Positions 37,984 to 57,780 of a stretch of DNA of 64,000 bases are shown here, piece after piece. The DNA is taken from NCBI RefSeq assembly GCF_007991755.1, contig NZ_BJYY01000014.1:146181-210180 (forward strand), in the 5' to 3' direction. Origin of the DNA: Cellulomonas aerilata (GTDB taxonomy: Bacteria > Actinomycetota > Actinomycetes > Actinomycetales > Cellulomonadaceae). How positions within the stretch are numbered: the first letter of the stretch is position 1; every line of letters starts with the position of its first letter. Below the pieces are notes generated by a model. That model saw only the letters and a list, made by a program, of their open reading frames with translations. It made no database searches and had not been told where the DNA came from. Made by a program: the position numbers and the translations under genes.

Positions 37984-38015
37984 CGCGACAGGCCCGCCAC
38001 CCGGCACGGACGACG

Positions 38016-38051
38016 ACGGGGCCCGCTCTCCATCAGGAGAGCGGGCCCCGT
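38016..38051. terminator. bidirectional terminator between converging genes
   Basis: ACGGGGCCCGCTCTCC and GGAGAGCGGGCCCCGT form a perfect 16-bp stem with an ATCA loop, between the NodZ-like gene (plus) and the beta-helix gene (minus). Confidence 0.9.
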
Positions 38052-38072
38052 GGTCGTGCGGGACGTGCTGGG

Positions 38073-39686
38073 TCAGCCCTTCGACACGGTGACCGGCTTG
38101 CCGTCGGTGTAGAAGTTGTCGTCCACGGTGAGCCTCGTGGTCGGCGGCGCCAGGATCGCGCAGTTGTCGTGCCGCGTGTCCCGACCGAAGGTGTTGTCCA
38201 GGACGGACATGCCCTGGATGGCGCCCCGGCCCTTCTCGGCCACGTTGATGGTGCAGGCCCCGCCGTCGGCCCAGTTGCCCGCGAAGGTCACGTTCGCGAC
38301 CTTGCCGGTGTCCTGGGTGATCATCACGGCCGCGTTGTTGGCGTCCTCGATGGTGTTGCCCACGATCGCGATGCCGGACCCGGCCTGGATCTGGATGCTG
38401 TCGTCGTGCGAGCCGTCCCGGTGGTTGGGGTCGTTCGCGTAGTGCAGGTTGTCGTGCAGCCAGGACGACTCGATCCGGACGTTGCCGCCGGTGATGGCCA
38501 CCTGGTCGATGACGTGGTGGATGTCGACGCGGCGCAGCGTGAAGCTCTTGCCCACGATGCCGCTGATCCACACGGACTGGTACTGCGGGACGAGCTCGGA
38601 GTCCTGGACCAGCAGGCCGGTGCTCGAGGCCTGGATGAGGTGCATCCCGCCGGAGATCGGCTTGCCGCGGACGATCGAGTTCTTGATCGTGACGTCCGGC
38701 GCCTTGACGCGGACGAAGCCACGGATGTCCAGGCCGTCGATCACGGTGCCGGCCGTCGTGATGGTGAGGTCACCGTGGTGCACCTTGAGGGTCTTGCCGG
38801 CGGGCACGCCGGTGTTCGCCGCGCCGGGCTTGCCACCGACCGGCTGAGCCGGCGCCGGCGCGGGCTTGGGAGCCGGGGCGGGTGCGGGCTTGGGAGCAGG
38901 TGCGGGCTTGGGGGCCGGCGCGGCGACGGGCGCGGGAGCCGGCTTCGCGCCCTCGGGGACGATGAAGCGCACGATCTCGGGCGTGACGCGCACCGACGCG
39001 TGGTCGTTGTGCAGGGTGACGCGGTTCTTGTCGTTGCTGCCCAGCGTCACGACCTGCGTGCCCGTGTTGGTCTGGCCCTTGTGGGCGACGAGGATCGGGT
39101 CACGGTCGCACCGGCCCCAGCTGGTGCAGGCGAGCACCGAGGTCGTGCGCCAGGCGCCGGAGCCGGTCAGGCGCAGCTCGACCGCGGTGGCGCCCGCGGG
39201 CTTGTCCTTGAAGGTCAGCACGGACATGCCGCCGGGGCCGATGACGCGGCTGGGCAGCTTGAGCAGGGCCTTCACCGCGGCCTGCGCGTCGGCCTGCGCT
39301 GCGACCTCGGGCGCGACCGCGTCCGCGGGCTGGACCGCGTCGGCCTCGTCGGTGATCTCCGCGTCGGGGTCCGGCGACGCCTCGGGCTCGGCAGCCTCGT
39401 CCGGGACGACGTCCTCCGCGGGCGCCTCGTCCGGGACGACGTCCTCGACGGGCGCCTCGTCAGCGGGCGTGCCAGAGTCGGAGGCGGCAGCCTCGTCCGG
39501 CGACGGCGCGCTGGTGGTGTCGTCGGCAGGGATCGCGACCTCGGCGGTGAGGTCGGCGGGCGGGGCGTCAGCGGCCTGCGCCGGCATCGCGACCGCGAGG
39601 ATCGACGTGGCGGCGACGAGGACGGTGCACGCCGCCCGGAGGGTCGACTGCTTCCGGCTCGGGGCGTGCGTGTAGGACTGAAGCAC
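38073..39686 (-). CDS. secreted right-handed parallel beta-helix protein
   Basis: Exported 537-residue protein. A signal peptide spans ~1-39 (cut after AQA). It is followed by an acidic repeat region with DEAPVEDVVP units (~60-120), a small beta domain (~135-245), a PAPK-type linker (PAPKPAPAPKPAPAPAPK), and a C-terminal parallel beta-helix (~290-537: LTITTAGTVIDGLDIRG, VTIKNSIVRG, DIHHVIDQVAI, SWLHDNLHYANDP, HDDSIQIQ). The helix domain is closely similar to that of the gene at 40196-42340. The fold occurs in polysaccharide lyases, epimerases and polymer-binding proteins; the HDD and HHVIDQ clusters may be active-site or metal residues. The GTG start has GAGGGAG upstream. Confidence 0.85.
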   Translation of the reverse strand: MLQSYTHAPSRKQSTLRAACTVLVAATSILAVAMPAQAADAPPADLTAEVAIPADDTTSAPSPDEAAASDSGTPADEAPVEDVVPDEAPAEDVVPDEAAEPEASPDPDAEITDEADAVQPADAVAPEVAAQADAQAAVKALLKLPSRVIGPGGMSVLTFKDKPAGATAVELRLTGSGAWRTTSVLACTSWGRCDRDPILVAHKGQTNTGTQVVTLGSNDKNRVTLHNDHASVRVTPEIVRFIVPEGAKPAPAPVAAPAPKPAPAPKPAPAPAPKPAPAPAQPVGGKPGAANTGVPAGKTLKVHHGDLTITTAGTVIDGLDIRGFVRVKAPDVTIKNSIVRGKPISGGMHLIQASSTGLLVQDSELVPQYQSVWISGIVGKSFTLRRVDIHHVIDQVAITGGNVRIESSWLHDNLHYANDPNHRDGSHDDSIQIQAGSGIAIVGNTIEDANNAAVMITQDTGKVANVTFAGNWADGGACTINVAEKGRGAIQGMSVLDNTFGRDTRHDNCAILAPPTTRLTVDDNFYTDGKPVTVSKG

Positions 39687-40108: not shown

Positions 40109-40143
40109 CACAGTCCCAGGTTGCTGCCCGACCACGAACACCA

Positions 40144-40175
40144 CGACCCCCTGGCCGGGGGAGGCCAGGGGGTCG
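40144..40175 (-). terminator. terminator hairpin after PKD/beta-helix gene
   Basis: CGACCCCCTGGCC and GGCCAGGGGGTCG form a perfect 13-bp stem with a 6-nt loop, 20 bp beyond the stop of the minus-strand gene. Confidence 0.85.
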
Positions 40176-40195
40176 GGACCGGGACAGCGGTGGGA

Positions 40196-42340
40196 TCAGC
40201 CCTTCTTGACGGTGACCGCGACGCCGTCGGTGTAGCGGCTGTTGGTGACCGTGACGGGGGTGGTGGGCTTGGCCAGGACGGCGCAGCCGGCGATGCGGGT
40301 GCCGCGGCCGAAGGTGCTGTCGGTGACGGTGACGCCCTGGACCGGGCCGTAGGTCTTCTCGGCGATGTTGATGGTGCAGGCGCCGTTGTCGGCCCAGTTC
40401 CGGGTCCACGCGACGGTGGACACCTTGCCGCGGTCCTGCGTGATCATCATCGCGGCGTTGTGCGAGCCGGTGATCGTGTTGCCGGTGAACGTGAGGTTGG
40501 AGCCGACCTGGACCTGGATGTTGTCGTCGTGGCTGCCGTCGGCGTGGTTGGGGTCGACGCCGGCGGCGTAGTGCAGGTTGTCGTGCAGCCAGCTGGCCTC
40601 GACCCGGACGTTGTTGCCGATGATGTGGACCTGGTCGATGACGTGGTGGATGTCGGAGCGCACGACGGTGAAGTTCCGTCCCACGATGCCGTTGATGTAG
40701 GGGGAGGGGTTGGCGGCGAATACCTCCGAGTCCTGCAGGGTGAGGCTGTAGGTGTCGCCGTCGACGGTGATCAGGGAGGCGCCGGACGTGGCGGCCGCGC
40801 CACCGCGGACGATGGAGTTCTTGATGGTGACGCCTGCGGCCTTGACGTTGACGCGGCCACGGATGTCCAGGCCGTCGATGACGGTGCCGGGGGTGGTGAT
40901 GGTGAGGTTGCCGTCGTGCACCCGCAGCGCGGTGCCGGCCGGCACCCCGGTGTTCGAGTCGTCCGGCCGGGCGCCGGGGTTGCTCGGCGCGGCGACCGTG
41001 ACGGCTCGCTGCGTGCGCGCGGTGGCGCCCCGGTTGTCGGTGACGGTCAGCGCGACGGTGTAGGTGCCGGCTGCCGGGTAGGTGTGGGTTCCGGTGGCGC
41101 CGGTGCCCGTGGTGCCGTCGCCGTAGGCCCAGGCGTAGCTCGTGATGGTGCCGTCCGCGTCGGTGGACCTGGTGCCGTCCAGCGCGACGGTCAGGCCGGT
41201 CGGCGTGGCCGCCACGGCCGCGGTCGGCGCGACGTTCGGGGCCGTCACGGTGACGTCGCGGCGCGCCGTGGCGGTCGCCCCACGGTCGTCGGTCACGGTG
41301 AGCGTCACGGGGTAGGTGCCGGCGGCCGGGTAGGTGTGCGACGCCGCGGCGCCCGAGGTGGTGGTGCCGTCGCCGTTGTCCCAGGCGTACGCGACGATCC
41401 TGCCGTCCCGGTCGGTGGAGCCGGCCGCGGACAGCGCGACGGACAGGTCCGTGGGGGTAGCCGTCGCGGCCGCGGTGGGCACGACGTTGGGGACGTCGGC
41501 GACCACGACGGCACCGGCCGTCGCCGCGGTGGAGGCGACCCGCAGGTCGGAGTACGTCGCGGTCACCGGGCGGGTCGCCGTGCCGGACACGTACGTGGTG
41601 AGGCCGACGGCGCCGGCGGTCTGGAGACCGGCGGTGGAGTCCGTCCTGGTGACCTGCCACGTGGTGGGCTCGGTGGCCGAGGCCCGCCACACCTTGGCGC
41701 GGATCGTCGTCGGAGCGGTGCCCGTCACCTGCACGCGCACGGCGAGCTTCGTGCCGGGTGCGTAGCTCAGACCGGCCACGTCGGTCGCCGCGAGGGAGGT
41801 GCCCGAGCGGGCGATCTGCAGGTTGACGGCGCCGTTGGGCAGCACCTTGACCCGTGCGTGGTAGCTGCTGGTGCCCACCTGGCGGCCGACGACCGACAGG
41901 TAGGTGCCGCCCCCGGTCGGTGCGGCGTCCAGGGCGACGTCCGTCCGGACGTCGGCCGTGGTCGTCGTCGCGCTGTGGAGGAAGCTCGAGGCGGTGTGCG
42001 CGACGGGGACGCGCTGCCGACCGCCGTTCGCCGACACGGAGAACGTCGCGGCGGCGTTGACGCTGGTCCAGGCGCCACCGACCTCCGCGGTCCCCCAGCC
42101 GCCGGTGAGCGACCGGCCGAACCGGTCGAGCGCGACGTCGGTGCCCTGCGTCGTGGTGGCGGCCGTCGCAGCGGGGAGGGCGGCGACGGCGGTGGCGGCC
42201 TGCGCAGGGGCCACCGCGGCGGCGAGCAGGCCCGCGGCGACGGCGGAGCACGCTGCTGCCCGGGCGACCCGGCGGGCGAGGTGCGGTGAGGTGGTCCGGG
42301 CAGTCGGATGGGCGCCCGCGAGGGGCAGCGCTGTGCGCAC
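40196..42340 (-). CDS. secreted jelly-roll module / PKD / parallel beta-helix protein under c-di-GMP riboswitch
   Basis: Exported protein of 714 residues. It has a signal peptide (~1-48, cut after AQA) and a ~200-residue beta module (~68-270) beginning DRFGRSLTGGWGTAEVGGAW, which recurs in two other island proteins. Two PKD domains follow (~285-365, ~366-445; GDGTTTSGAAASHTY, YGDGTTGTGATGTHTY), then a C-terminal parallel beta-helix (~460-714) closely similar to the neighbour at 38073. The architecture suggests a secreted polysaccharide-binding or -modifying matrix protein. The GTG at 42340 is chosen because GGAG lies six bases upstream and directly follows a c-di-GMP riboswitch. Earlier in-frame starts (42451, 42388) lie inside that RNA. 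Confidence 0.88.
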   Translation of the reverse strand: MRTALPLAGAHPTARTTSPHLARRVARAAACSAVAAGLLAAAVAPAQAATAVAALPAATAATTTQGTDVALDRFGRSLTGGWGTAEVGGAWTSVNAAATFSVSANGGRQRVPVAHTASSFLHSATTTTADVRTDVALDAAPTGGGTYLSVVGRQVGTSSYHARVKVLPNGAVNLQIARSGTSLAATDVAGLSYAPGTKLAVRVQVTGTAPTTIRAKVWRASATEPTTWQVTRTDSTAGLQTAGAVGLTTYVSGTATRPVTATYSDLRVASTAATAGAVVVADVPNVVPTAAATATPTDLSVALSAAGSTDRDGRIVAYAWDNGDGTTTSGAAASHTYPAAGTYPVTLTVTDDRGATATARRDVTVTAPNVAPTAAVAATPTGLTVALDGTRSTDADGTITSYAWAYGDGTTGTGATGTHTYPAAGTYTVALTVTDNRGATARTQRAVTVAAPSNPGARPDDSNTGVPAGTALRVHDGNLTITTPGTVIDGLDIRGRVNVKAAGVTIKNSIVRGGAAATSGASLITVDGDTYSLTLQDSEVFAANPSPYINGIVGRNFTVVRSDIHHVIDQVHIIGNNVRVEASWLHDNLHYAAGVDPNHADGSHDDNIQVQVGSNLTFTGNTITGSHNAAMMITQDRGKVSTVAWTRNWADNGACTINIAEKTYGPVQGVTVTDSTFGRGTRIAGCAVLAKPTTPVTVTNSRYTDGVAVTVKKG

Positions 42341-42358
42341 GGTGGTCTCCGGTCGTTT

Positions 42359-42430
42359 CGGTAGCCTGGCGGACCGCGTGGGTCCCATGGCTTTGCGTCC
42401 CTGCCTCGCGGCAGGTTTGCCCTTGTCGTG
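42359..42430 (-). promoter_or_regulatory. cyclic-di-GMP-I riboswitch (GEMM)
   Basis: Reading the minus strand, the conserved parts occur in order: CACGACAAGGGCAAACC, a P2 helix TGCC/GGCA closed by a GCGA (GNRA) tetraloop, the invariant GGGACGCAAAGCC (complement of 42389-42401), a second helix GGACC/GGTCC, and the closing CAGGCTACCG. This is the hallmark pattern of the c-di-GMP-I aptamer. The Shine-Dalgarno sequence of the secreted PKD/beta-helix gene begins about nine bases after it. GACCAC next to that SD (complement of 42342-42347) can pair with GTGGTC upstream of the aptamer (complement of 42446-42451), a possible translational switch. Confidence 0.93.
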
Positions 42431-42705
42431 GACGCCTCCCAGATCGACCACACGCGATTCCGTGACGAGGTTTCCGGCGGTGTGACGTGGATCTCACCCG
42501 TCCGTGTGGGGCCGTGAGCGTGGCGCGGGTCGCCGCGACGCCCGCCGGGCCGAGCCCGCTGCTCCGGACGGGTGACGACGGCATCGGCCCGGGCCGCTCC
42601 GGAGCGCTGCGCTATCCTCGCCCGGCCCGCGACGCGGGCGCTGCGGTGCCAGGTGCGGCCGGCGTGGCCGGCCGGCCGCGGGACGAACGGGCGAGGGGGT
42701 CGTGC
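42431..42705. other. divergent promoter region (riboswitch transcript / glycosyltransferase)
   Basis: No gene is supported. For the plus strand TATCCT (42613-42618) is a good -10, which gives a leader of ~80 nt to the GTG at 42706. TCACCC (42494-42499) and GGGTGA (42570-42575) are half-sites of the island motif. The -10 of the minus-strand riboswitch transcript is not obvious. Confidence 0.45.
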
Positions 42706-49748: not shown

Positions 49749-52700
49749 ATGCGTCCGGATCTGAACCGGCTGGCCCGACGGGCGACGGCCACGGTGGGTG
49801 TGCTGTCGATGGCTCTGGTCGGGATGGTGGTGTCCCCGGCAGCGGCGGACACCGCGCCGGCCGTCGAGGCGGGCCTTCCGCAGACCGTGAGCTCGGACTC
49901 CCTGCCGACGGCGCAGATCGACGGGATCGCGTGGGACCAGAAGATCGCCGGCAACACCGTGTACGTCGGCGGCCGCTTCACCAGCGTCCGGCCCGCCGGC
50001 GCGGCGCCCGGGGCGTCCACGGTCGCGCGGTCGAACATGATGGCGTACGACATCCGGACCGGGCAGCACACCGGCTTCGCGCCCACGTTCAACGGCCAGG
50101 TGCGCCAGCTCGCGGTCTCCCCGGACGGGACCCGCGTGTACGCCGCCGGCGAGTTCACGACGGTCAACGGGACGACGATGTACCGGGTCGCCGCGTTCAA
50201 CGCCGCGACCGGCGCCCTCATCACCTCGTTCCGCCCCGCGGTCAACGCCCGCATCGCCTCCATCGCGGTGACGAACACGACCGTCTACATCGGCGGCATC
50301 TTCTCCTCGGTCAACAACCAGCCGCGGGCACGCGTCGCCGCCATCAACGCGGCGAACGGCGCCGTCCTGCCCGCCGTCGGCTCGGCGGACGACGGCGCGG
50401 TCAACGCGCTCGTGGTCTCCCCGGACGGCTCCAAGCTGGTCGTCGGCGGCAGCTTCACCACCTTCAACGCGTCGTCCAAGCCGGGCTACGGGCTCGCGAT
50501 GGTCGACACGGCCAGCGGGCAGATGCTGCCGCTGCCGGCGAACGACCTGATCCGCAACGGCGGCGCGAACGCCTCGATCACGAGCCTGAGCTCCGACGCG
50601 GACACGTTCTACGGCTCCGGCTACGTGTACGGCGCCGGCGGCAACCTCGAGGGCGCCTTCGCCGCCCGCTGGTCCGACGGCGGCATCGCCTGGGTCGAGG
50701 ACTGCCACGGCGACACCTATCAGTCCAAGCCGATCGGCGGCGTCCTGTACTCCGCCAGCCACAAGCACTACTGCGGCAACGTCGGCGGCTTCCCCGAGAC
50801 CACGCCGCGGTCCTTCTACCGCGCCACCGCGACGACCATCGACGCGCGGCGCACGGTCACCAAGGAGCCGACCGGCAGCTACTACAACTACGCCGGCACC
50901 CCGGCGCCGGAGCTGCTCAACTGGTTCCCCGCGATGGACACCGGCACCTTCTCCGGCTCGAACCAGGGCCCGTGGGCCGTCGACGGCACCGGCCAGTACG
51001 TCGTCATGTCTGGTGAGTTCACCAGGGTCAACAACGTGGGGCAGCAGGGCCTCGCCCGGTTCGCGGTCCCGTCGATCGCGCCGAACCGGGACGGTCCGCG
51101 CCTGAGCGGCGCCACCATCAACCCGCGGCTGCGGTCGGTCACGCCGGGCGAGGTCCGGATGACCTGGCCGGCGAACTGGGACCGCGACAACGCGACCCTG
51201 ACCTACCGGGTCTACCGGACGAGCTCGACCACCCCGCCGATCTTCGAGCAGACGGTCACCGCGTCGTTCTGGGAGACCGAGGACCTGCAGTTCGTCGACA
51301 CCGGGCTCGAGCCGGGCTCGACGCAGCGGTACCGCGTCACCGCGACCGACCCCTACAACAACACCGTGCAGTCCGAGTTCGTCACGGTCACGGTCGCCTC
51401 GGCGCAGACCGCGAACGCGTACGCCGGGGAGGTGCTGGCGGACGGTGCGTCGTCCTACTGGCGGCTGGACGAGGTGTCCGGGACCACGGTGCAGGACTGG
51501 GCCGGCCGGAACGACGCGGTCGCCGCGGCCGGCGTGACCCGTGGCGCGGCAGGTGCCGTCCCCGGCACCGCCTCGACCTTCGACGGCACCACCAGCGGGT
51601 GGGCCGCCTCGCAGAAGGCCGCGCCCGGGCCGAACACCTTCACGGTGGAGGCCTGGTTCAGCACGACCTCGACCACGGGCGGCAAGATCGTCGGCTACGG
51701 CAGCTCGGCCACCGCGCCGTCGGGCAGCTACGACCGCCAGGTCTACATGGACAACGCCGGCCGGATCGTGTTCGGGGTCCACCCGGGCACGAACCGCACC
51801 GTCGTCAGCACCGGGTCGTTCAACGACGGCCAGTGGCACCACGTGGCGGCCTCGCTGGGCTCCAACGGCATGCGCCTGTACGTCGACGGCAAGATCGTCG
51901 GCCAGCGCACCGACACCACGAGCGGGCAGGCGTACAACGGCTACTGGCGCATCGGCGGCGACACCATCGGGGTGAGCTGGACCAACTCGCCGACCAGCAA
52001 GTACCTGGCCGGTGCCATCGACGACGTCGCCGTCTACCCGACCGTCCTGGTGCAGGAGCAGCTGCTCGACCACTACCTGGTCTCCGGTCGCACCTCCACG
52101 CTGCCGGTCAAGCCGTCCGACGCGTACGGCGCCGCGGTCCGCGACGCCGGGCCGGAGCTCTACTGGCGCCTCGGTGAGACCGAGGGCACGCAGGCGGTCG
52201 ACACCGGGCTCGCGGGCCTGCACGGCACCTACCGCAGCGGCGTGACGCTCGGCGCCGCCGGGCCGCTCGCGTCCGGTGCCACCACGGCCGTGACCCTCGA
52301 CGGCGTGGACGACTACGTCTCCGGCGACACGTCCGTCGTCAACCCGAGGGTCTACTCCCAGGAGCTGTGGTTCTCCACGACCACGACCCGCGGCGGCCGG
52401 CTCATCGGCTTCGGCACCAGCAAGGACGCCGTGTCGACCTCCTACGACCGCACGGTGTACATGGAGACCGACGGCCGGCTGTCCTTCGGCGCGCTGACCT
52501 CCGTCAAGAACGTCATCTCCTCCACGGCGCCCTACAACGACGGCGCCTGGCACCACCTGGTCGCCACCCAGTCGTCCGAGGGCATGCGCCTGTACGTCGA
52601 CGGTGTGCTGGTCGCGCAGAACGCGGTGACCGGCGCGCAGTCCTACACCGGGTACTGGCGGGTGGGCGCGGACCGCAACTGGGGTCCGTCGCAGGGCTTC

Positions 52701-54236
52701 GACGGCAAGGTCGACGAGGCCGCGATCTACTCCCGTGCGCTCGGCGCCCAGACGGTGGCCGACCACTTCGCGCTGGGCACCACCGGCGGGCCGGCCGACG
52801 GGCTGCCCACCGCGGCCTTCACCTCGGCCGTGGACGCCCTGGGTGTCACGGTGGACGGCACGGCGTCGTCCGACCCCGAGGGCGGTGCGCTCACCTTCGC
52901 GTGGGAGTTCGGGGACGGCGCGACCGGCACCGGCCCGACGGCCGCTCACACGTACGCCGTCGACGGCACGTACACCGTGCGTCTGACGGTGACCGACGCC
53001 GCGGGCGGGACGGACACCGAGCAGGCGACCGTGAAGGTCGCCGCGCCGGCCAACGTCGCACCGACGGCAGCGTTCACCCCCGGCGTCCGGAACCTGGTCG
53101 TCGACCTCGACGCGCGGGCGTCCGCCGACAGCGACGGCACCATCGCCTCGTACGACTGGAGCTTCGGCGACGGGACCACGGGCACGGGCGCGACCACGTC
53201 GCACACCTACTCCGCCGCGGGCACCTTCACCGTGGGCCTGACCGTGACGGACGACGACGGCGCCAGGACCCAGACCTCCCAGCAGGTCACGGTCGCGCCG
53301 GCCCCGCCCGCCAACGTCGCGCCGACGGCCTCCTTCACCTCGTCGGCGCAGGGTCTGGCGCTGTCGGTGAACGGCTCCGGGTCGAGCGACCCGGACGGCA
53401 CCGTGGCGTCCTACGCCTGGGCCTTCGGTGACGGCGGCACGGCCACCGGCCCGACGGCGTCGTGGACCTACGCCGAGCCGGGCACCTACACGGTCGTCCT
53501 CACGGTGACCGACGACGACGGCGGCAAGGGCACGAAGTCGGCGACGGTCACGGTGACCGCCCCGCCCGCCCCGCCCACGCCCCCGGCGTCGACCGCCGTC
53601 GCGCAGGACGCCTTCGGGCGCACCGTCGCCAACGGCTGGGGCACCGCCGAGGTCGGCGGCGCGTGGACGACGACGGGCTCGGCGTCGCTGTTCTCCGTGG
53701 ACGGCAGCGTCGGGCGCCAGCGCCTGGCGACCGCCGGTGCCGACCTCAAGGCGTCGCTGAACGGCGCCACGTCGACCGACACCGAGCTCCAGGCGCAGAT
53801 GAGCCTGGACAAGCCGACGACCGGCGGCGGCGTGTACTTCTCCGTCGTCGGCCGCCAGGTGGGGTCCGAGGACTACAAGGCCCGCCTGCGCATCTACCCG
53901 ACCGGGAAGGTGGACCTGACGCTGGCCCGCACCGGGACGACCCTGGGCGCGGTGACCGTCCCCGTCACGTACACGGCGGGCGACGCGCTCCAGGTCCGGC
54001 TGCAGGTGACCGGTACGGCTCCGACCACCATCCGGGCGAAGGTGTGGAAGGTCGGCGAGTCCGAGCCCGCCGACTGGCAGCGGACGGTGACCGACGCCAC
54101 GGCCGGGCTGCAGGTCGCCGGCGGGATCGGGCTGGGTGCGTACCTGTCCGGCTCGTCGACGAACGCCCCGACGGTCGCGAGCTTCGACCGCGTGTGGGCC
54201 GGTCCCACCGCCGGCGCCCCGGTCGCGGGAGCCTGA
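49749..54236 (+). CDS. giant secreted protein: beta-propeller, FN3, two LamG, three PKD, C-terminal jelly-roll module
   Basis: Exported protein of 1495 residues. Domains in order: signal peptide (~1-37, ends AAADT); propeller-like repeats with the motif YVGGRFTSV / YAAGEFTTV / YIGGIFSSV / VVGGSFTTF (~45-440); FN3 (~455-553); LamG 1 (~554-782); LamG 2 (~790-1014); PKD 1-3 (~1018-1099, 1100-1185, 1187-1274); and the ~200-residue module (~1281-1490) that begins QDAFGRTVANGWGTAEVGGA. There is no membrane anchor or sorting signal. LamG and PKD domains typically bind carbohydrate or mediate adhesion, so a polymer-bound matrix role is inferred. Paralogous to the next gene over the first ~780 residues. 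Confidence 0.9.
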   Translation: MRPDLNRLARRATATVGVLSMALVGMVVSPAAADTAPAVEAGLPQTVSSDSLPTAQIDGIAWDQKIAGNTVYVGGRFTSVRPAGAAPGASTVARSNMMAYDIRTGQHTGFAPTFNGQVRQLAVSPDGTRVYAAGEFTTVNGTTMYRVAAFNAATGALITSFRPAVNARIASIAVTNTTVYIGGIFSSVNNQPRARVAAINAANGAVLPAVGSADDGAVNALVVSPDGSKLVVGGSFTTFNASSKPGYGLAMVDTASGQMLPLPANDLIRNGGANASITSLSSDADTFYGSGYVYGAGGNLEGAFAARWSDGGIAWVEDCHGDTYQSKPIGGVLYSASHKHYCGNVGGFPETTPRSFYRATATTIDARRTVTKEPTGSYYNYAGTPAPELLNWFPAMDTGTFSGSNQGPWAVDGTGQYVVMSGEFTRVNNVGQQGLARFAVPSIAPNRDGPRLSGATINPRLRSVTPGEVRMTWPANWDRDNATLTYRVYRTSSTTPPIFEQTVTASFWETEDLQFVDTGLEPGSTQRYRVTATDPYNNTVQSEFVTVTVASAQTANAYAGEVLADGASSYWRLDEVSGTTVQDWAGRNDAVAAAGVTRGAAGAVPGTASTFDGTTSGWAASQKAAPGPNTFTVEAWFSTTSTTGGKIVGYGSSATAPSGSYDRQVYMDNAGRIVFGVHPGTNRTVVSTGSFNDGQWHHVAASLGSNGMRLYVDGKIVGQRTDTTSGQAYNGYWRIGGDTIGVSWTNSPTSKYLAGAIDDVAVYPTVLVQEQLLDHYLVSGRTSTLPVKPSDAYGAAVRDAGPELYWRLGETEGTQAVDTGLAGLHGTYRSGVTLGAAGPLASGATTAVTLDGVDDYVSGDTSVVNPRVYSQELWFSTTTTRGGRLIGFGTSKDAVSTSYDRTVYMETDGRLSFGALTSVKNVISSTAPYNDGAWHHLVATQSSEGMRLYVDGVLVAQNAVTGAQSYTGYWRVGADRNWGPSQGFDGKVDEAAIYSRALGAQTVADHFALGTTGGPADGLPTAAFTSAVDALGVTVDGTASSDPEGGALTFAWEFGDGATGTGPTAAHTYAVDGTYTVRLTVTDAAGGTDTEQATVKVAAPANVAPTAAFTPGVRNLVVDLDARASADSDGTIASYDWSFGDGTTGTGATTSHTYSAAGTFTVGLTVTDDDGARTQTSQQVTVAPAPPANVAPTASFTSSAQGLALSVNGSGSSDPDGTVASYAWAFGDGGTATGPTASWTYAEPGTYTVVLTVTDDDGGKGTKSATVTVTAPPAPPTPPASTAVAQDAFGRTVANGWGTAEVGGAWTTTGSASLFSVDGSVGRQRLATAGADLKASLNGATSTDTELQAQMSLDKPTTGGGVYFSVVGRQVGSEDYKARLRIYPTGKVDLTLARTGTTLGAVTVPVTYTAGDALQVRLQVTGTAPTTIRAKVWKVGESEPADWQRTVTDATAGLQVAGGIGLGAYLSGSSTNAPTVASFDRVWAGPTAGAPVAGA

Positions 54237-54404: not shown

Positions 54405-54450
54405 CGTGGCGCCCACACCTGTTGCACCACCCGAGCGACGCGGGGATCCC

Positions 54451-57400
54451 ATGGGACCGAGACTCGACCGGCTGACCCGACGAGCGACCGCGGCGGTGGG
54501 GGCTCTCGCCGTGGGCCTGGCAGGGGCGCTGACGGCCGTGTCCGCGGCGGCTCCCGCAGCGGCGGACACCGCACCGTCGGACACCACGCTGCCGAGGACG
54601 GTGAGCTCGGACGCCCTGCCGACGGCGCAGATCAACGGCGTGGTGTGGGACCAGCAGATCATCGGCAACACCGTCTACGTCGGCGGGGAGTTCACTGCGG
54701 TGAGGCCCGCCGGCGCCGCTCCGGGCGTGTCCACGGTCGCGCGCACGAACCTCATGGCGTACGACATCCGCACGGGGCAGTACACGGCGTTCGCGCCCAG
54801 GCTCAACAGCAAGGTCGAGGCGCTCGGGGCGTCGCCCGACGGCAGCCGGCTCTACGTCGGCGGCAACTTCACCGACGTGAACGGTGACACGACACGCGAC
54901 TACCTGGTCGCGTACAGCACCGCGACGGGGGCGCTCGACGCGGCCTTCAAGCCGAGCGTCAACGGTGCGGTCCGCGCGATCACGGCGACCAGCTCGACGG
55001 TGTACCTGGGCGGCGTCTTCAGCTCGGTCGGGGGGCAGGAGCGCGTCCGGATCGCGGCGGTGAACACGGCGGGTGCAGTGCAGGCGTCGATCGGCAACGC
55101 GAACGACCAGGTCCGTGCCCTGCAGCTGTCACCGACAGCCAGCCACCTCATCGTCGGCGGAGCGTTCACCACGTTCAACGGGGCCTCGACACCGGGTTAC
55201 GGCCTCGCGCGGGTCGACCTCGCGACGCGCCAGTCCGTCGCGCTGCCGGCGAACAACCTCATCCGCAACGGCGGCGCCAACTCCGCGATCACCAGCCTCA
55301 GCGGGGACGCCCAGTACTTCTACGGCTCCGGCTACCACTTCGGGTCCGGAGGCAACCTCGAGGGGTCGTTCGCCGCCAGGTGGAGCGACGGCGCGATCGA
55401 GTGGGTGGAGGACTGCCACGGCGACACGCACCAGTCGTTCGCGATCGGCGGGGTGATCTACTCCGCGAGCCACAAGCACTACTGCGGCAACATCGGCGGC
55501 TTCCCCGAGTTCAGCCCGCGGCAGGAGTACCGCGCCACGGCGACGACCACGGCGGCGCGGGGCACGGTGACGAGGGACCCCCACGGGTACTTCAACTTCG
55601 CCGGGAACAAGGCGCCGCAGCTGCTCAACTGGTTCCCCGCGGTGAACAGCGGCACGTTCACCGGGCAGAGCCAGGGTCCGTTCGCCGTCACCGGCACCAG
55701 CGAGTACGTGGTGATGGGCGGCGAGTTCACCAAGGTGAACGGCACCGGCCAGCAGGGTCTGGTGCGGTTCGCCGTCTCGGCCATCGCACCCGACAAGGAC
55801 GCCCCGCGCCAGGTGCAGGCCTCGGTCAACCCGCGCGTGCGGTCGGTCAAGGCCGGCGAGGTCCGGGTCTCCTGGCCGGCGTACTGGGACCGGGACAACG
55901 CGACGCTGACCCACCGGGTCTACCGGACGACCACGACGTCGCCGACCACGCCGCCGAACTACGAGAAGGCGGTCACCGCGCCCTTCTGGAGTGCCAGGTC
56001 CGGCACGTTCGTGGACACGGCGCCCGGGGCGACCCCCAAGTACCTGCTCGCCGTCAGCGACCCGATGGGGAACACCACCAAGACCAGCCTGGTCGGCGTC
56101 ACCACCGCGACCACCACGCAGCCGTACCCGGCCAAGGTCTTCGACGACGGCGCGTCGCTGTACTGGCGGCTCGGCGAGGCGTCCGGGACCGCGGTGCAGG
56201 ACTGGGTCGGCTTCACCGACGCGACGGCAGGCACCGGCGTGACGCGGGGCGCGCCGGGCGCGGTCGCGGGGGACGGCGCGTCGGCCTTCAACGGGACGTC
56301 CACCGGCTTCGCGGCGGCCCGGACCATCGCCCCCGAGCCCGGCCCGAACACGTTCACCGTCGAGGCGTGGGTCAAGACGTCGTCCACGGCCGGCGGCAAG
56401 ATCGTCGGCTACGGCAACGCGCTGACCGGCGGCTCGACGAGCTACGACCGGCACCTCTACATGGACAACGCCGGGAAGATCTACTTCGGCGTCAACTCCA
56501 ACGGCACGAAGACCGTGTCCAGCACCCAGTCGTACAACAACGGCGCCTGGCACCACGTCGCGGCGTCGCTGGGGTCGGGCGGCCTGAAGCTGTACGTCGA
56601 CGGCGCGCTGGTCGGCTCGCGCACCGACGCCACCGCGGGCCAGGCCTTCCGGGGCTACTGGCGCATCGGCGGCGACTCGCTCGGGCCGAGCTGGGCGGGC
56701 ACGAAGACGAGCGGCTACCTGAACGGCTCGATCGACGAGGTGGCGGTGTACCCGACGGCCCTGAGTGCGACGCAGATCGCCGGCCACGAGGCCTTGGGCG
56801 GGCCGGCCACGGCGAGCCCACCGGCGGACGCGCCGGCGGCGAGCCCGCCTGCGGACGCGCCGGCGGCCGACGAGGCGAACGCGGGTCCGACCGCCTCGTT
56901 CACCGCCACCACCGACGGGCTGGCCGTGACCGTCGACGGGTCCGCGTCCAGCGACCCGGACGGCGCCGTCGCCTCGTACGCCTGGGACTTCGGCGACGGC
57001 ACGACCGCCACCGGACCGACCGCGTCCCACACGTACGCGGCGCCGGGCACCTACACCGTCGGCCTGCGGGTCACCGACGACGCCGCCGCGGCCGCGTCCA
57101 CCACCCAGCCCGTCACGGTCACCGCGGCGACCCCGCCGGCCCTGCCCGCCGGGGAGCTCGCCCGCGACGCCTTCGACCGCACGGTGACCGGTGGCTGGGG
57201 CACGGCCGCCGTCGGTGGTGCGTGGGCCACGAGCGGCGCGGCGTCCAGCTTCTCCGTCGACGGCGGGGTGGGGCGCCAGGTGCTCCCGGCGCCCGGCCGG
57301 GACGTGACCTCCGTGCTGGCCGGGTCCTCGACCGACACCGAGGTCCAGGTGGTGGTCGGTCTGGGCACGCCTCCGACCGGCGGGGGTACCTATGTGTCCG

Positions 57401-57780
57401 TGATCGGACGCAAGGTCGGCACGGCCGGCGACTACCGCGCACGGCTGCGGCTGTACCCGACCGGCGTCGTGAACCTCCAGGCCGCCCGCGGCGGCACGGC
57501 GGTCCGGGCCGTGGACGTCCCCGGCCTGAGCTACGCCGCCGGTGACCGGCTCGCGGTGCGCCTGCAGGTCACCGGGACGTCGCCGACCACGCTGCGGGTC
57601 AAGACGTGGCCCGCCGGGGACGCCGAGCCGGACGCCTGGCAGATCACCGCGACCGACGCCACACCCGCGCTGCAGGCCGGCGGAGGCGTCGGGGTGGGGA
57701 CGTACCTGTCGTCCACCTCCACCAACGCCCCCGCGGTCGCGACGTACGACGACCTCTGGGCCGGTGCACCGCGTGGCTGA
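54451..57780 (+). CDS. giant secreted protein: beta-propeller, FN3, LamG, PKD, C-terminal jelly-roll module
   Basis: Exported 1109-residue paralogue of the preceding protein. It has a signal peptide (~1-36, AAAPAAADT), propeller-like repeats (~45-440; YVGGEFTAV, YVGGNFTDV, YLGGVFSSV, IVGGAFTTF), FN3 (~455-555) and one LamG (~558-783). An Ala/Pro linker with two SPPADAPAA units follows (~788-810), then one PKD (~810-891) and the shared C-terminal module (~897-1109, DAFDRTVTGGWGTAAVGGAW). It lacks the second LamG and two PKD domains of its neighbour, so the pair looks like a tandem duplication followed by domain loss or gain. The ATG at 54451 is followed directly by the twin of the neighbour's signal peptide. 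Confidence 0.9.
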   Translation: MGPRLDRLTRRATAAVGALAVGLAGALTAVSAAAPAAADTAPSDTTLPRTVSSDALPTAQINGVVWDQQIIGNTVYVGGEFTAVRPAGAAPGVSTVARTNLMAYDIRTGQYTAFAPRLNSKVEALGASPDGSRLYVGGNFTDVNGDTTRDYLVAYSTATGALDAAFKPSVNGAVRAITATSSTVYLGGVFSSVGGQERVRIAAVNTAGAVQASIGNANDQVRALQLSPTASHLIVGGAFTTFNGASTPGYGLARVDLATRQSVALPANNLIRNGGANSAITSLSGDAQYFYGSGYHFGSGGNLEGSFAARWSDGAIEWVEDCHGDTHQSFAIGGVIYSASHKHYCGNIGGFPEFSPRQEYRATATTTAARGTVTRDPHGYFNFAGNKAPQLLNWFPAVNSGTFTGQSQGPFAVTGTSEYVVMGGEFTKVNGTGQQGLVRFAVSAIAPDKDAPRQVQASVNPRVRSVKAGEVRVSWPAYWDRDNATLTHRVYRTTTTSPTTPPNYEKAVTAPFWSARSGTFVDTAPGATPKYLLAVSDPMGNTTKTSLVGVTTATTTQPYPAKVFDDGASLYWRLGEASGTAVQDWVGFTDATAGTGVTRGAPGAVAGDGASAFNGTSTGFAAARTIAPEPGPNTFTVEAWVKTSSTAGGKIVGYGNALTGGSTSYDRHLYMDNAGKIYFGVNSNGTKTVSSTQSYNNGAWHHVAASLGSGGLKLYVDGALVGSRTDATAGQAFRGYWRIGGDSLGPSWAGTKTSGYLNGSIDEVAVYPTALSATQIAGHEALGGPATASPPADAPAASPPADAPAADEANAGPTASFTATTDGLAVTVDGSASSDPDGAVASYAWDFGDGTTATGPTASHTYAAPGTYTVGLRVTDDAAAAASTTQPVTVTAATPPALPAGELARDAFDRTVTGGWGTAAVGGAWATSGAASSFSVDGGVGRQVLPAPGRDVTSVLAGSSTDTEVQVVVGLGTPPTGGGTYVSVIGRKVGTAGDYRARLRLYPTGVVNLQAARGGTAVRAVDVPGLSYAAGDRLAVRLQVTGTSPTTLRVKTWPAGDAEPDAWQITATDATPALQAGGGVGVGTYLSSTSTNAPAVATYDDLWAGAPRG

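Follow-up and report, generated by a model that had tools for sequence, protein, structure and literature searches.

Development in Streptomyces is governed by cyclic di-GMP (c-di-GMP) through the protein BldD. In Vibrio cholerae, the class I riboswitch Vc1 of gbpA stands before a secreted carbohydrate-binding protein, whose expression is raised by c-di-GMP according to the part of PMC4744006 that deals with it. Here, we analyzed a 64,000-nucleotide stretch of the Cellulomonas aerilata genome (contig NZ_BJYY01000014.1, positions 146,181 to 210,180; hereafter the window), in which an element of the same class is located on the minus strand at 42430-42356, directly before a gene for a protein with PKD and beta-helix domains. 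The reading we favor, with appreciably better than even confidence, is that a predicted c-di-GMP aptamer would exert translational control over this PKD/beta-helix protein, perhaps as an ON switch. All coordinates are those of the window, and the features of this locus are on its minus strand.

Judged by covariance models and by covariation among its relatives, the aptamer is real and is a further example of a known riboswitch class. A cmscan search of the whole window matched RF03167 (c-di-GMP-I-GGC) at 42430-42356 over the full length of the model with 70.0 bits (E = 1.6e-14; curated cut-off, 59 bits), and a separate search with RF01051 gave 65.5 bits at the identical place (cut-off, 35 bits); the cmscan output omitted one weaker above-cut-off match to a family of the same clan, at the aptamer or elsewhere in the window. 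These scores bear out the c-di-GMP-I class named in a preliminary description of this DNA, which had proposed the RF01051 search of the minus strand as a check. The ordered blocks it listed, GGGCAAACC, a GNRA-capped P2 (the GCGA tetraloop at 42406-42409), GGGACGCAAAGCC, and GGCTACCG, were each found in the sequence. It had also placed two apparent extensions of the reading frame inside the aptamer; the in-frame ATG at 42388 does lie within P3, but the GTG at 42451 is 21 bases upstream of the aptamer.

Relatives were sought in 199 genomes, the own genome included, and 51 of them had a match. The 140 listed places (own genome included) contained 4 duplicates, and the weak L136-L139 were dropped, which gave an alignment of 132 aptamers. 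No start was present within the distance used at L130 and L137; the former is in the alignment, so 131 leaders were grouped: 49 before short frames, 44 before BldC-type genes, 30 before putatively secreted proteins, and 8 others. We set these groups ourselves, BldC by sequence motif, short by length, secreted by eye from the N termini (not blind), and the rest as miscellaneous; automated start choice mislabeled some frames, and L117 was set by hand. Over 131 distinct rows, 95.2% of the cells were paired, 12 of 20 pairs varied on both sides, and none of 500 shuffles was as good. The P3 AUG was rejected as a second start: AUGs of the secreted group were spread over the three frames (7/8/8), and selection for such a start is therefore not indicated.

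The contact positions are given in Vc2 numbering, anchored by the conserved blocks to what we take to be the letters of Vc2. The window aptamer carries the canonical c-di-GMP set, with G20 at 42421 (a ligand contact in the part of PMC4744006 consulted) and A47 at 42394, both placed by RF03167 alignment and position tally, and the ligand contact C92 at 42361, placed by the tally. C and G are present at the interhelical C44 and G83 positions, A95 is kept, and all 15 chosen conserved or contact positions match; these were picked from Vc2 descriptions in parts of PMC4744006 and PMC3764141, and C59, G79, and G90 lie outside that set.

The start codon of the regulated gene, GTG (42340-42338), follows the aptamer end by 15 bases, and its Shine-Dalgarno (SD) sequence GGAG (42347-42350) begins 5 bases past the aptamer, 6 bases 5' of the GTG. 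In 136 leaders, TANNNT was found 50 times at -20 to -10 from the aptamer; 200 shuffles gave 10.6 ± 3.0 and never more than 21. Peaks of TTG were located at -39 and -38. Placed from this -10 box of the relatives, the usual transcription start would be near -3, at the G of a common GUC that pairs with GAC; in the window, GUC (42431-42433) and GAC (42352-42354) would be the 5' and 3' strands of an outer P1, with the mRNA 5' end presumably nearby. If transcription begins just before P1, the leader would consist of little besides the aptamer and the SD, with control acting on translation, which we regard as probable for the window gene. A T-run terminator was searched for at this leader, and none was found. 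We rejected a WhiG/FliA-like promoter, which has the motif GCCGAT: CGAT is at -16 in the window, as in some relatives, but only 7 upstream regions have it there, and TAAA occurs once overall.

The gene behind the element (40196-42340) encodes 714 amino acids. Domain search revealed two PKD domains at residues 292-446 (41003-41467; PF18911, 139.2 bits; PF00801, 106 bits) and a C-terminal right-handed beta-helix domain (40199-40975), which domain comparison found to be common to other proteins behind such elements. The N terminus is signal-like by inspection, and secretion is probable, in agreement with the secreted PKD/beta-helix product described earlier. The term "matrix-type protein" used for it could be narrowed, since the fold predicted for the C-terminal domain resembles that of polysaccharide lyases and epimerases and places it among those with a right-handed beta-helix. 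Because of this predicted fold of its end, the product may act on or in extracellular polysaccharide. In 23 sequences of the domain, 15 columns are invariant, e.g., D114, H131, H149, D151, and Q154 (domain numbering), and homologues of the window protein include proteins named from Cellulomonas. Past the stop codon, a strong GC hairpin (40141-40177) is likely to mark the end of a one-gene transcript; the stretch 40135-40195 folds at -37.2 kcal/mol (z, -4.48).

Unliganded folding points to a candidate switch hairpin at 42349-42361, in which C42361, C42360, and G42359 pair with C42351, G42350, and G42349, taking C92 and half of the SD; its pair probability was 0.38 to 0.51 in four runs. Without ligand, C42351-G42349 of the SD region would be held by G42359-C42361. 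Since C92 is required by the ligand and the two bases after it by P1, binding would free the SD by direct competition, and c-di-GMP would turn synthesis ON. With transcripts started at -3 and folded to +6, aptamer formation made the SD easier to open by over 0.5 kcal/mol at 21 of the 29 loci of the secreted group and harder to open at 1; 33 of 47 short-frame leaders were eased and 1 was hindered, and the effect was weaker in the BldC leaders (19 eased and 7 hindered of 44). The window's own change was -1.06 to +0.35 kcal/mol over nine settings, seven of them negative. In unliganded folding from -3, the J3/1 ACC strand was the largest SD partner within the aptamer, but its share was small (0.11 to 0.19 per SD base on average), and downstream pairing of the SD was similar or greater once more coding sequence was folded.

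Several observations weigh against the ON switch and the wider reading. As a test of direction, SD accessibility varies with the assumed RNA ends. Secreted-group loci eased and hindered, out of 29, for folds to +6, +20, and +40 numbered 21/1, 16/5, and 17/5 with a start at -3; 15/6, 11/11, and 12/8 at -5; and 10/11, 7/15, and 13/11 at -9, such that the effect shrinks and then reverses. At -9, the mean for this group was +0.09 to +0.44, and that for the bldC leaders was +0.97 to +1.07, pointing to OFF. When the RNA folded was shortest, a CCG at the start codon was the partner of the SD instead. Upstream of the window aptamer, no recognizable -10 box or sigma-70 promoter was found; CGATCT (42441-42446), a poor -10, stands where the relatives have their box. 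The base before GGA in the SD is C in 16 of 30 secreted-group leaders versus 5 of 93 BldC and short-frame leaders (kinship not removed), and SD type may follow lineage, not function. Moreover, within the stretches examined, the element was found in one of four named domain loci (L170, in genome G118). Because lengthening the RNA or moving its start upstream weakens and then inverts the SD-opening effect, we hold the ON direction at little better than an even chance.

The main alternative is that the same aptamer serves as an OFF switch, the ligand stabilizing P1, the 3' strand of which adjoins the SD or runs into it. High c-di-GMP would then shut synthesis, and the protein would be made when cells leave the matrix, like a dispersal enzyme. 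At another element of the own genome (L003), a 5' strand is able to pair with the entire SD, and OFF is therefore favored there. At the window gene, however, the P1 extension is merely GUC/GAC and ends short of the SD, the relatives' -10 box puts the start near -3, which would exclude most of that extension, and the window values with a start at -9 were still negative (-0.98, -0.20, and -0.42). An OFF switch thus appears unlikely for this gene, although it is the strongest competitor of the ON switch.

A second alternative concerns the ligand. The separate name c-di-GMP-I-GGC might hint that the element senses another cyclic dinucleotide, e.g., 3',3'-cyclic GMP-AMP (cGAMP), and RF03167 does outscore RF01051 (70.0 versus 65.5 bits). 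A at position 20 shifts preference towards cGAMP, and 7 of the 132 aligned aptamers have it; these variants (L047, L075, L107, L108, L119, L121, and L129) are natural candidates for another cyclic dinucleotide. The window aptamer, however, is among the 121 with G20/A47/C92, the others being 2 with C20, 1 with T20, and 1 with C47. From the model, the letters GGC would appear to denote positions 20/47/92, yet the G47 of the RF03167 consensus is present in none of the 132 aptamers (131 A, the window included, and 1 C). The window element thus scores best with RF03167, at full length, but has A in place of the consensus G. From the contact bases checked, the element should have an ordinary c-di-GMP-I pocket, despite its Rfam name. 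The genome is also rich in GGDEF domains (37 matches, some partial). A ligand other than c-di-GMP is very improbable, and we are confident in assigning the element to the c-di-GMP-I class with c-di-GMP as the predicted ligand, as the preliminary description had supposed.

Hardly credible is the switch helix proposed there between GTGGTC (42451-42446), upstream of the aptamer, and GACCAC (42347-42342), beside the SD: its six perfect pairs exist, but 678 of 5,000 mononucleotide shuffles of the upstream stretch reached its score, pairing of this type was not enriched across 131 loci (the observed mean was equaled or exceeded in 162 of 200 permutations) or across the 37 loci whose products are large or other proteins (the observed value was equaled or exceeded in 360 of 500 permutations), and its 5' arm overlaps the site of the relatives' -10 box, DNA that is therefore probably untranscribed in them, so that GTGGTC would be absent from the window RNA if its start is also near -3. 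This helix was rejected for its chance-level score and absence of conservation, and the CCG/CGG hairpin joining the SD to C92 is the better switch candidate.

Many genomes of the family have c-di-GMP-I elements immediately in front of genes for BldC-type regulators (e.g., L004, L022, and L075). The group representative L022 passes the NCBIfam BldC model (100.3 versus 77 bits), and L076 (G078:C31, 119790-119864 and 120226-120300) consists of two elements 436 bases apart, each with its own BldC-type frame. Short-frame targets (L002, L048, L069, L078, and others), possibly small proteins, are in many cases about 45 to 66 residues long and end near a VPAQ/VPTQ-like motif; the one representative tested had no Pfam or NCBIfam match. 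EAL proteins follow the elements L068 and L134, and a GGDEF protein follows L128. Weaker matches at L130 and L137 (50.4 and 30.4 bits) are upstream of frames that look pilin-like by inspection, in two genomes from a different family within the order.

Aptamer types are split by target: at model positions 44-69, 22 of the 30 aptamers of the secreted group have a compensatory U-A pair, versus none of the 93 of the BldC and short-frame groups (kinship not removed). In relatives, the beta-helix domain that follows the element comes after a PKD or DUF4214 domain or has no known domain N-terminal to it. Element-bearing genomes of the family contain 34 domain genes (E below 1e-30), 9 with the element directly upstream, the window gene included, and 25 without; for 5 of these 9, a same-strand paralogue immediately precedes the element. 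At L041, L051, and L129, the contig ends within the domain or where it starts, which truncates the gene behind the element. It is conceivable, if rather speculative, that c-di-GMP runs a multigene programme via RNA in the Cellulomonas family, in which a C44-G69/AGGAG type shuts BldC off, and a U44-A69/CGGAG type, that of the window, turns proteins acting on matrix polysaccharide on by a contest of ligand and SD for C92, choosing one paralogue of tandem arrays.

The 4.06-Mb genome of C. aerilata has four c-di-GMP-I elements, each above the RF01051 cut-off. One precedes the window gene; the others precede a frame of 66 residues (L002), another putatively secreted protein (L003), for which no Pfam or NCBIfam match was found at E 0.01, and a BldC-type regulator (L004; G000:C12:130254-130329). 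A paralogous beta-helix gene in the window (38073-39686), whose domain is 62% identical, has no riboswitch match in the Rfam comparison. Sub-threshold matches to a microRNA model at 38005-38062 on both strands (37.5 and 35.6 versus 79 bits) probably reflect a mere inverted repeat 3' of that gene. The window gene sits among polysaccharide genes, as had been noted before; two more large PKD/laminin-G proteins of this cluster (49749-54236 and 54406-57780) are without a riboswitch match.

Taken together, these results add one member to an established riboswitch class. Its target is likely to be matrix-related, its subclass label is corrected, and a switch different from that first proposed is put forward tentatively. 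In an actinobacterial family, c-di-GMP would probably act directly through RNA on a polysaccharide-cluster protein that is likely secreted. The same element class stands before bldC-type genes, where it would provide a second, RNA-level c-di-GMP route beside BldD. This shared element and the division of aptamer types by target, both beyond the site first described, are the most interesting lead. With so short a leader, the locus is also well suited as a minimal system in which to study how such an aptamer gains access to the ribosome-binding site.

The beta-helix domain resembles the polysaccharide lyase RbmB of V. cholerae in its predicted fold, and we know of no RNA control of rbmB. The two share 13% identity (compared with RbmB as given in part of PMC11637428), phage tailspikes score alike, and such likeness by itself shows no function. 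With Vc2 of V. cholerae (RF01051), the window element has in common the three-helix aptamer, the GNRA-capped P2, G20/A47/C92, the C44 and G83 positions, and A95; it differs in being GC-rich and in having its SD 5 bases past the aptamer, which leaves no space for a long expression platform. The leader of Vc1, as far as the part of PMC4744006 consulted describes it, exceeds 200 bases, whereas the window start codon lies 15 bases past the aptamer, and the two proteins differ; both, however, are class I elements before a protein that is, or in the window probably is, secreted.
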